Shown here in pieces: positions 12,822 through 16,601 of a DNA stretch of 64,000 nt (within the stretch, counting starts at the first letter, position 1; each line of letters begins with the position of its first letter). A program made the translations under genes and the position numbers. Source of the stretch: an uncultured Verrucomicrobiae bacterium (GTDB lineage: Bacteria > Verrucomicrobiota > Verrucomicrobiia > Limisphaerales > UBA1096). Below the pieces are notes generated by a model. The model did not search any database. It was not told the origin of the DNA and saw nothing but the letters and a program-made list of their open reading frames with translations. The stretch lies in NCBI GenBank assembly GCA_937770485.1, contig CALJHX010000007.1:62001-126000 (forward strand). Direction: 5' to 3'.

Positions 12822-15800
12822 ATGAAGAAAGCAGCAACCATTATCCTCTTTATTATTCAATCGACTTCGATTGACGCCCTAGACTGGCCCACCTATCGGC
12901 ATGATACTCAAAGGACAGGTATTACCAGCGAGCAGTTGGGTCTTCCATTGTCGAAAAGCTGGACGTTTGTGTCCACACACCAACCCGAGAGGGCATGGCC
13001 AGCGCCATTCAGGGAAAACCCATACTCAGGAGTCAAGGTGGAGCCGCTACTTACTTTTGACCATGCCTTCCAGCCGATTGCTTGCGGGAATTCGGTCTTT
13101 TTCGGTTCCTCAAGTGACCATCAGGTATACTGCCTAGACTTAACATCAGGTCGTATCAAATGGACTTTTTATACAGAGGGGCCAGTTCGCATCTGTCCGA
13201 CATTCCATCAGGGAAGGCTTTATTTCGGATCGGACGACGGAATTATTTATTGCCTTGATGCCCAAACAGGGCAGGAGCATTGGCGTCATCTTGCGGGCCC
13301 AAGTAATGATAAGATTCCCGGGAACGAACAAATTATTTCCCGTTGGCCGGTACGCACCGGTGTACTGGTCGAGAAAGGCCTCGTTTATTCGGCAGCGGGT
13401 CTGTTCCCGGCAAGGGAGGGATCCTATTTATTTGCGCTTGATGCCTATGAGGGGAAAAATGTATGGAAGAAAAAAATAAACCAGACAGCCCAGGGCTATC
13501 TCTTGGCCACGCCAAGCAAGATTTTTGTGCCTTCTGGTAAATTGACGCCATTGATGTACAATAGGGCTAATGGGGATTACCTCAAACGTATCTCAGGGCC
13601 ACGTGGCAACTTCGCGTTGATTGTCGATGATGTCATGGTTTCAGGCCCGGGCATTTCAGGTGAAAATTTAGTGGTGCTAGACCAAGCTAATAAGCAATAC
13701 CGTGTGGCGAACTTCAAGGCCAACAAGGCGGTCATCAGTCCCAACTCTGTTTTTCTTGCGTCAGGATCTGAAATCATTCGTCGAGAAAGAAAACCGCTTG
13801 CCCTAAGGAGTCTTGAGAAACGCAAAAATGATTTGGAGGGAATGATAAAGGCGGAGCATGACTGGGAAAAAGCGGAAGAATTAAAACTAAAGATCGCGGC
13901 AGCAAAGAAAAATTTCGAGGGGGTTATTGACCTGAATAACAAACTCCAGTGGCAGGCCGAAAAATTTGATCGTGGCAATGTTGTTGTAGATCGCGAGTTA
14001 TATGGCAAGGAAGTAGGGATTATTTCTGACCCAGGAGGGCAAAAGAACTTTGTTGAGTACGATCTCATAGTTGAGAAGACCGGTATGTTTCAGTTGGAAC
14101 TGAGGTATGCTGCGCGATTGCCGCGCCCGGGACGTATTCTTATAGATGGAAAAGTTGCAAGAGAAGTAGCCATTGCACAAACCACTGGAGGATGGGAGCC
14201 AGAATATCAGAGGTGGCATAGCGAGGGTTTAATCAAAGCTGTCACAAAAAAATTCACTCTCAGAATTGAGTCTGAACCAATGATGTCTCATATTGATGAG
14301 ATACGCCTGACTCCCCTTATAGGAAACATCCCAGAGCTGGAGAGAGTCAATGCAGTCATTGAAGGTTTTAACAAGCAACTTACTGAGACTCAGAAAACCG
14401 CCAAAAAACCAGAAACAGCTATCACCTTAAAAGGAGGTATCTCTATTAAGGAGCAGATCAAAACCACAAAAGATTCCATTACCAAAATTAAGTCGCAAGC
14501 ATCGCTTATCAAGGAATGGAAGCAGCCGGTTAAAGAAGCCAAGGCAATCATTATGGCGGGGAACACCTTATTCGTGGGCCGTGAAAACGAGGTACTTGCC
14601 ATTGACGCCAACACAGGGAGCATTGACTGGAACATGACTGTAGACGGCATAGTTCATGGTCTTGTCGCGGCCAACGGCTCCCTTCTGGCAACCACAGACA
14701 AGGGCAAGATTTATTGCTTTTCAGAACAAGGAATCCCGCAACAAGTTACAGATAATACAGCCTCAACGAAGCAGCGTATAAGCGAAGAACATATTGATTA
14801 TTTAGATCAGGAATTTAGCAGGCATATGATCGGGCAACTCGATCAACGAACAGGCTATGCTCTGGTTCACGGGGCTGGGGATACACAGATGGCATCGCAA
14901 ATTCTGAGAGACACAAATTTCAATCTAGTTATTGTGGAGGAAGATTCCAAGATTGCGTCGAAAACCCGCAGCTTTTTTAACGAGAAGGGATTGTATGGAA
15001 AAAGAATCGTTGTTCACAAAAAATCAGGAAACCAGCTGCCCTATCCGGATTTTATGTTCAATTTTATTTGTGTGGATATTAATGCCTTAAAAGGGGCAAA
15101 ACCTCTACTCAGTGAGTACTATCGTCTGCTGAGACCGTTTGGGACATTGGCCATTGGAGGGAAAAAAGAGGCGAGCGAGGCATTGGCGCTTGCTCACAAA
15201 CCATTAGCCGAACTGGTTGCTAGTAGTCCGGATATTAAGCGCAAGTTTCATTCAATGAAAGATCAGCAGTGGCATGTGATCAACAGGGGCAGGCTACCAG
15301 GCAGCGGTGAGTGGTCCCATCAATATGCAGATCCTGGGAACACAGCGTGCAGTGAGGATATGAGGATAAGTGGAGATCTCAGGCTCCAATGGTTCGGCAA
15401 GCCCGGGCCCTACCGAATGTTTGACAGGCATTCATATACAACAGCTCCTGTCTACAGCAGCGGTCGTTTGTTTACGCTGGGCGAAAGAATCCTATATGCC
15501 AATGATGCCTATAACGGTCGCGTACTTTGGGAGAAAGAACTCCCATCCTTGGAGCCAAGAGTAAATCTGCCCCGTGATTGCGGGTACATGGTGACCGATC
15601 GGGATCATGTGTACCTTGCCGTTAAGAACAATTGCATAAAAGTTAATGCAAGGTCGGGAAAAACCGAAAAGGAATTTAATTGCCCAAAAATAAACGACGA
15701 TTATGACTACAATTGGGGGTATGTTGCCACAACGGGCGGCCTTCTTTTCGGCTCAAGTGTCCGCTCAGGGAACTTTTATAGTGAAGGGCGAGGGCCCTGG

Positions 15801-16601
15801 TATGACGACTCCGGTTTTAATAATGCCCAGGATAGCCACAAGGTGTTGAGCGATTGTCTTTTTGCAGTTGATTTAGCTGGTAACAGACAAGCTTGGAAAT
15901 ACAACGGTGTGATCATTAATTCGACCATCGCAATCGGGGGCGGTCTAATTTATTTCGTTGAAAACAGAAACCGAAAGGTCCTTCAGGACAAGTCACGTAG
16001 ATTAAGCGGAGGCAAGGAGTGGATGGCTTTACATCTTGTTGCCTTGGATGTGAAAACAGGGAATAGGGCCTGGGAAAGCGACATGCAATTTGAACAAAGA
16101 ACTCCGGTATTCTTTTCCACCTATAAGGAGGGAACCCTGATCGTACTTCGTTCTTCCTCTAAGTCTTTTGATCTTAGGGCGATTAATGCCAAATCCGGTA
16201 AATCACTCTGGAATCGAGACCATGGTTGGGAGAACAACCATCACGGGGCGCACCGGCGACACCCGGTCATTATTGGAGATGTTGTCTATCAACAACCCCA
16301 CGCATACGACCTCAAAACAGGCAAAGAGAAGTGGTCCACAAGTAAGGTGGGAGTAGGCGGCAATTGCGGAACTTTATCAGCGTCTTCCACCATGTTGTTT
16401 TCGCGCCTAAGCGATTACCCCGGCTTCATCGATTTGGGGAAGGGCATGAACAAGGAAAATCTGGTGGAGATTACTCGGCCGGGATGTTGGATCAATATCA
16501 TCCCTGTGGGCGGGATGGTTTTGGTTCCGGAAGCGGGATCTGGGTGCAGCTGCGAATACTCGATTCACGCATCTATGGGCTTTCTCCCAAGAAAAAATTG
16601 A
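12822..16601 (+). CDS. Giant secreted PQQ-type beta-propeller protein with inserted coiled coils and methyltransferase-like domain
   Basis: A 1259-residue protein with an N-terminal signal-like segment (KKAATIILFIIQSTSIDAL). Residues about 20-320 carry PQQ/Kelch-like propeller blades (VYCLDLTSGRIKWTFY, IYCLDAQTGQEHWRH). A charged helical stretch follows (about 323-380), then a beta-sandwich-like part (about 390-500; GMFQLELRYAARLPRPGRI) recalling carbohydrate-binding modules, and a second helical stretch. A further blade (LAIDANTGSIDWNMTV, about 580-640) precedes a Rossmann-like methyltransferase segment (about 655-800; YALVHGAGDTQMASQIL, LLRPFGTLAIGG). A second propeller half (about 815-1240) closes it. 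The SAM-binding glycine motif is altered (HGAGDTQ), so activity is doubtful. It stands alone, AT-richer than its neighbours and free of the dispersed palindrome, which fits transfer. Confidence 0.8.
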   Translation: MKKAATIILFIIQSTSIDALDWPTYRHDTQRTGITSEQLGLPLSKSWTFVSTHQPERAWPAPFRENPYSGVKVEPLLTFDHAFQPIACGNSVFFGSSSDHQVYCLDLTSGRIKWTFYTEGPVRICPTFHQGRLYFGSDDGIIYCLDAQTGQEHWRHLAGPSNDKIPGNEQIISRWPVRTGVLVEKGLVYSAAGLFPAREGSYLFALDAYEGKNVWKKKINQTAQGYLLATPSKIFVPSGKLTPLMYNRANGDYLKRISGPRGNFALIVDDVMVSGPGISGENLVVLDQANKQYRVANFKANKAVISPNSVFLASGSEIIRRERKPLALRSLEKRKNDLEGMIKAEHDWEKAEELKLKIAAAKKNFEGVIDLNNKLQWQAEKFDRGNVVVDRELYGKEVGIISDPGGQKNFVEYDLIVEKTGMFQLELRYAARLPRPGRILIDGKVAREVAIAQTTGGWEPEYQRWHSEGLIKAVTKKFTLRIESEPMMSHIDEIRLTPLIGNIPELERVNAVIEGFNKQLTETQKTAKKPETAITLKGGISIKEQIKTTKDSITKIKSQASLIKEWKQPVKEAKAIIMAGNTLFVGRENEVLAIDANTGSIDWNMTVDGIVHGLVAANGSLLATTDKGKIYCFSEQGIPQQVTDNTASTKQRISEEHIDYLDQEFSRHMIGQLDQRTGYALVHGAGDTQMASQILRDTNFNLVIVEEDSKIASKTRSFFNEKGLYGKRIVVHKKSGNQLPYPDFMFNFICVDINALKGAKPLLSEYYRLLRPFGTLAIGGKKEASEALALAHKPLAELVASSPDIKRKFHSMKDQQWHVINRGRLPGSGEWSHQYADPGNTACSEDMRISGDLRLQWFGKPGPYRMFDRHSYTTAPVYSSGRLFTLGERILYANDAYNGRVLWEKELPSLEPRVNLPRDCGYMVTDRDHVYLAVKNNCIKVNARSGKTEKEFNCPKINDDYDYNWGYVATTGGLLFGSSVRSGNFYSEGRGPWYDDSGFNNAQDSHKVLSDCLFAVDLAGNRQAWKYNGVIINSTIAIGGGLIYFVENRNRKVLQDKSRRLSGGKEWMALHLVALDVKTGNRAWESDMQFEQRTPVFFSTYKEGTLIVLRSSSKSFDLRAINAKSGKSLWNRDHGWENNHHGAHRRHPVIIGDVVYQQPHAYDLKTGKEKWSTSKVGVGGNCGTLSASSTMLFSRLSDYPGFIDLGKGMNKENLVEITRPGCWINIIPVGGMVLVPEAGSGCSCEYSIHASMGFLPRKN

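Follow-up and report, generated by a model that had tools for sequence, protein, structure and literature searches.

BamB and related PQQ-type beta-propellers (PF13360, PF01011), class I SAM-dependent methyltransferases (PF13649, PF08241; 3dlc) and PSCyt1-PSCyt2-PSD1 proteins (DUF1549/DUF1553) are the closest described systems to a 1259-aa protein of a marine Verrucomicrobiota bacterium, encoded in the window (the whole stretch of DNA that was analysed, 64,000 nucleotides). In freshwater Verrucomicrobia, PSCyt genes are reported to occur near sulfatase genes and to be fused to carbohydrate-binding modules (CBMs), with function unknown (PMC5615132). The 1259-aa protein resembles BamB in the blade type of both its propellers and in its apparent export. 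Unlike BamB, however, it has two propellers, methyltransferase-like and CBM-like additions, and near-invariant cysteines in propeller 2. The NCBIfam equivalog cut-off for BamB was not reached (83.7 vs 285.2 bits), nor was that of PQQ_enz_alc_DH for PQQ-dependent alcohol dehydrogenases (57.7 vs 480.05 bits). With class I methyltransferases it shares the order and motifs of that domain, including RLLRP-G, whereas motif I is degenerate and unconserved, a YGxR motif and a conserved N747 are added, and the protein is apparently exported. The likeness to PSCyt1-PSCyt2-PSD1 proteins lies in an inserted module, 63% identical to residues 351-540, but a search of the 1259-aa protein found no PSCyt domain, PSD1 domain or CxxCH motif. 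The types of part are all known. What appears to be new, judged by the open-access papers searched, is an apparently exported propeller-methyltransferase-propeller family with an eroded cofactor site and a link to PSCyt.

Gene and domain layout

The gene is a single uninterrupted frame (Table 1) with full-length orthologs in congeners at 89, 81, 79 and 71% identity. Upstream on the other strand lie genes of 306 and 171 aa, which are kept in the window and at loci L021 and L022, and the direct neighbours of the gene are unrelated housekeeping genes. Because the frame is intact, congeners hold orthologs and the upstream neighbours are kept, the ORF is a real and conserved protein. Contig scans with one protein as query retrieved close orthologs only. 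One ortholog, L022 (5869-9215; G007/QOAX01000247), is without the CBM-like module and is read as two overlapping frames of 550 and 657 aa; this is a frameshift, either real or assembly-derived.

Table 1. Features of the 1259-aa protein and their positions in the window.
Feature	Residues	Position	Strand	Basis
Whole gene	1-1259	12822..16601	+	single uninterrupted ORF; orthologs
Signal-peptide-like N-terminus	1-18	12822..12875	+	sequence; similar hydrophobic N-termini in relatives
Propeller 1, main part	19-335	12876..13826	+	PQQ_2; stand-alone homologs
Module, putatively captured	about 351-540	13872..14441	+	coiled coil, CBM35-like (about 375-505), coiled coil
Propeller 1, closing part	561-637	14502..14732	+	stand-alone propeller-1 C-termini; L022 fusion
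Class I methyltransferase-like domain	664-812	14811..15257	+	profile, Pfam and hhalign
Degenerate SAM loop VHGAGDTQM	682-690	14865..14891	+	ortholog drift; GxGxG in 10/29 of family
Family-specific YGxR motif (YGKR)	725-728	14994..15005	+	phylum-wide conservation
Propeller 2	813-1259	15258..16598	+	PQQ/BamB-type profile matches; family-wide homology
His-rich segment HGWENNHHGAHRRH	1134-1147	16221..16262	+	conserved in close relatives only
Span of four near-invariant cysteines		16365..16553	+	phylum-wide conservation

A signal-peptide-like N-terminus is followed by propeller 1, the methyltransferase-like domain and propeller 2, an anatomy that we hold to be very likely correct as laid out in Table 1. 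An earlier interpretation made from the letters of the DNA (the sequence-only reading) had proposed two halves of a PQQ-type propeller around a CBM-like and a methyltransferase-like domain. The blade type was borne out by PQQ_2 (E=1.7e-34 for the whole protein, best stretch 83-160), and the two inserted parts exist together with the expected coiled coils, which flank the beta-rich module. The halves did not stand, as both propellers are complete; nor does the CBM-like module lie between them, a place taken by the methyltransferase-like domain alone, but inside a hairpin of propeller 1. The Rossmann segment placed at residues 655-800 was recovered with its limits corrected to about 664-812.

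Evidence for the propellers came from relatives. The closing part of propeller 1 is joined to residues 1-358 in L022, and is C-terminal in stand-alone propeller-1 proteins. In BLASTP comparisons with relatives, a 462-aa protein of the same genome (L091) was a stand-alone match to residues 5-353 and 542-633, and a 755-aa protein there (L088) matched residues 674-1257, that is, the methyltransferase-like domain with propeller 2. At another locus (L083) two adjacent genes encode propeller 1 alone (424 aa) and the methyltransferase-like domain with propeller 2 (756 aa). Because relatives encode them as separate proteins, these are two complete and separable propellers. Both L083 genes have their own signal-peptide-like start, and such N-termini were found throughout the family, as judged by sequence. 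The 1259-aa protein therefore appears to be exported and would work outside the cytoplasm, in line with its earlier description as secreted.

The methyltransferase-like domain

The family profile of this domain matched solved methyltransferases in the PDB (3dlc, E=2.6e-10; 3bus, E=1.1e-5). Pfam methyltransferase models (Methyltransf_25/11) matched 13 of 20 family members, the best with 1.2e-12, and one relative (L010) stood above the Pfam cut-off (Methyltransf_25, 41.3 bits). The segment of the 1259-aa protein itself matched Methyltransf_25 below the Pfam cut-off (E=0.0012), and the ortholog group alone gave no significant match against the PDB. When compared with ordinary methyltransferases by hhalign, the family reached 98.9% and the ortholog group alone 93.9%; the comparison sequences had been gathered with the family profile, and therefore the PDB match is the independent result. 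The domain aligns along its length with relatives in a match that extends into propeller 2, with an overall identity of 34-39%. Family profile, Pfam and hhalign thus agree with the class I methyltransferase layout that had been suggested, and by homology the domain descends from a SAM-dependent class I methyltransferase.

AlphaFold2 (AF2) models were poor owing to shallow alignments (residues 19-836: five alignment rows, mean pLDDT 50; residues 640-1259: three rows, mean pLDDT 41), so the assignment of the fold rests on homology. Over residues 679-820 (661-802 of the model) helices and strands alternate at pLDDT around 40-58, a weak signal but one unlike propeller blades. Foldseek with the first AF2 model returned mostly BamB-like matches with a query TM of about 0.1-0.15, and was uninformative for the methyltransferase-like segment.

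The altered SAM loop HGAGDTQ singled out by the sequence-only reading is present at residues 683-689, and it proved to be degenerate and unconserved even among orthologs. GxGxG of motif I is not conserved: the loop reads HGAGDTQ, HGVGDAQ, HGFEDAE, HGVENTE or NGDLDLR across orthologs, whereas LYGKR, PYPD-MFNFICVD and RLLRPFG are nearly fixed in the same sequences. Phylum-wide, the conserved positions of the domain include G678, Y725-G726-x-R728 (Y in 27/30, G in 30/30 and R in 25/28), N747 and R768-x-L770-x-P772. A complete GxGxG was found in 10 of the 29 family members holding the region, and its scattered distribution over the tree suggests repeated loss. In class I methyltransferases an acid after beta 2 holds the SAM ribose. 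This acid is E706 in the 1259-aa protein and is also found in L002-L004, while L005 has G. Three members (L013, L016 and L051) carry DxGxGxG, all of them without the beta-2 acid (T or A instead). As the loop drifts while the other motifs stay, SAM is most likely not bound, and we consider it probable that the domain of the 1259-aa protein has lost this ability. Since two of the three glycines of its loop remain, along with E706, this protein may still bind SAM weakly.

Among orthologs, dN/dS was 0.18-0.33 in the methyltransferase-like domain, 0.06-0.11 in the propellers and 0.13-0.25 in the hairpin/CBM region. In the GxGxG clade, the methyltransferase-like domain had 0.12-0.21 vs 0.07-0.135 in the propellers. 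Constraint on the domain is weaker yet clearly present, and therefore the domain is used for something.

The CBM35-like module and the PSCyt/PSD1 genes

The module is borne by a helical coiled-coil hairpin of propeller 1. Over residues 351-539 the protein shares 63% identity with residues 409-597 of a PSCyt1-PSCyt2-PSD1 protein from the same genome (C16/L027), where the module stands between PSCyt2 and PSD1, and comparable long proteins in seven more genomes contain it too. The A5 profile gave partial matches to the solved chains 2w47/2w1w (E=6.5e-4) and 2vzp (E=0.008), which we take to be CBM35, whereas a Pfam search of the module itself returned no match. AF2 showed two long helices bracketing strands at this site (pLDDT around 60-74). 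The beta-sandwich resembling a CBM that had been described therefore corresponds to a beta-rich module whose profile is distantly similar to carbohydrate-binding chains of known structure. Most likely it was captured from a PSCyt/PSD1 protein, and it would hold a glycan. Paralogs and the ortholog L022 are without the module, and relatives that lack it keep a short hairpin there. In the tree L022 nests among module carriers, so the simplest history is one gain before the L005 split and one later loss, although the module may have been repeatedly gained instead.

A second connection was found in gene neighbourhoods, and it concerns the gene of the paralog rather than that of the 1259-aa protein. 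In the same genome, a PSCyt2-PSD1 gene lies directly downstream, on the same strand, of the paralog composed of the methyltransferase-like domain and propeller 2 (L088: 207-2312 and 2599-4863, both on the minus strand). Nine of ten further genomes have this neighbour (L093-L101; 10/11 with the genome studied), at 58-92% identity. All of these pairings come from one genus, so the genomes are not independent, yet the pair survived substantial divergence. The PSCyt2-PSD1 neighbours are about 700-950 aa long with one CxxCH (heme-c motif) each. The partners at L099 (1035-3812), L100 (1057-3915) and L101 (968-3778) are about 230 aa longer and carry an insert, which did not match the CBM-like module of the 1259-aa protein. 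Another paralog has a sulfatase gene nearby (L089). The 3.3-Mb draft genome G000 contains about 30 PSCyt2 (DUF1549) domains above the Pfam cut-off.

Distribution, function and competing explanations

The methyltransferase profile matched 28 of 289 genomes of the phylum at E<=1e-8, and some of these matches (L065-L068) look like ordinary methyltransferases outside the family. The sequence-only reading had suggested looking for the same architecture in Verrucomicrobia, and the core of propeller 1, methyltransferase-like domain and propeller 2 does recur across the phylum. Other families of the phylum have it in fused form, as propeller 1a, a gap, propeller 1b, the methyltransferase-like domain and propeller 2 (L080, L081, L082, L084, L086 and L087). 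Relatives carry extra modules: malectin, CBM96, LamG_3 and 3-keto-disaccharide hydrolase-like (3keto-disac_hyd). One genome, G171, shows an unusual expansion, with about 13 methyltransferase-like matches on several contigs, in ORFs of about 1270-1844 aa. The matches listed from a plasmid collection were all generic PQQ propellers or kinases. The family is widespread and expanded in the phylum. It is apparently undescribed: searches of the open-access literature turned up neither the propeller-methyltransferase-propeller architecture nor its eroded cofactor site or link to PSCyt.

The best explanation of the 1259-aa protein as a whole, to which we give a probability of about 60%, is that it belongs to an exported family whose core is propeller 1, a former methyltransferase and propeller 2. 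The methyltransferase-like domain would derive from a SAM-dependent ancestor and, in this lineage, would most likely do without SAM. It could now be a structural domain, or bind a ligand or partner, while fixed to propeller 2. The earlier suggestion of a structural or ligand-binding part is adopted here. The CBM-like module would hold a glycan and propeller 2, with its near-invariant cysteines, could form the conserved working surface. Cooperation with PSCyt/PSD1 proteins on polysaccharides is a more tentative element, which we place somewhat short of even odds. A further step, in which the former methyltransferase fold serves between the two propellers as a permanent, SAM-free adaptor or receptor outside the cytoplasm and the family forms with PSCyt/PSD1 proteins an undescribed glycan-processing (possibly redox) system, is speculative and rather unlikely.

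Two other accounts of the methyltransferase-like domain have to be weighed. That residues 655-800 are divergent propeller blades with a chance likeness to methyltransferases would fit the missing PDB match of the orthologs alone and the low AF2 confidence there. It is very improbable in view of the family profile match to 3dlc, the score of L010 above the Pfam cut-off, the alternating helices and strands, and a lengthwise alignment with relatives that runs on into propeller 2. It is also improbable, if less extremely so, that the domain continues to function as a SAM-dependent methyltransferase, whether in the cytoplasm, with an N-terminus other than a signal peptide, or outside, supplied with SAM by an unknown route. 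GxGxG survives in 10/29 relatives and the beta-2 acid in many, some have DxGxGxG, and purifying selection acts on the domain everywhere. However, both halves have signal-peptide-like N-termini even as separate genes (L083), the loop drifts among orthologs with losses scattered over the tree, and the members with a full acidic motif I are those without the beta-2 acid.

The remaining alternative places the real function in propeller 2, as a lyase, hydrolase or oxidoreductase that depends on a metal or cofactor, with the rest of the protein as accessories. Few parts of the protein are as constrained as propeller 2, and its best solved-structure profile matches were tetrathionate hydrolase and PQQ alcohol dehydrogenases. 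Four cysteines are near-invariant across the phylum (C1182, C1222 and C1242 in 30/30 each; C1244 in 28/30), and in close relatives the positions of the His-rich segment are kept in 19-21 of 21-22 sequences alongside conserved R869, R913 and D919. The His cluster was considered as the active site of the family and then downgraded, as it is not conserved phylum-wide. Moreover, the cysteines may simply form disulfides, and the structure matches are partial. An enzymatic propeller 2 is thus doubtful, but it is compatible with the best explanation, that of an exported propeller 1, former methyltransferase and propeller 2.

The neighbour link and the common module give the propeller-methyltransferase-propeller family a concrete and testable partner in the PSCyt/PSD1 proteins. 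Moreover, the family is a clear example of an enzyme fold apparently relocated outside the cytoplasm and retained in a role other than its cofactor chemistry. As its members span intact to eroded cofactor loops, this change is open to comparison.
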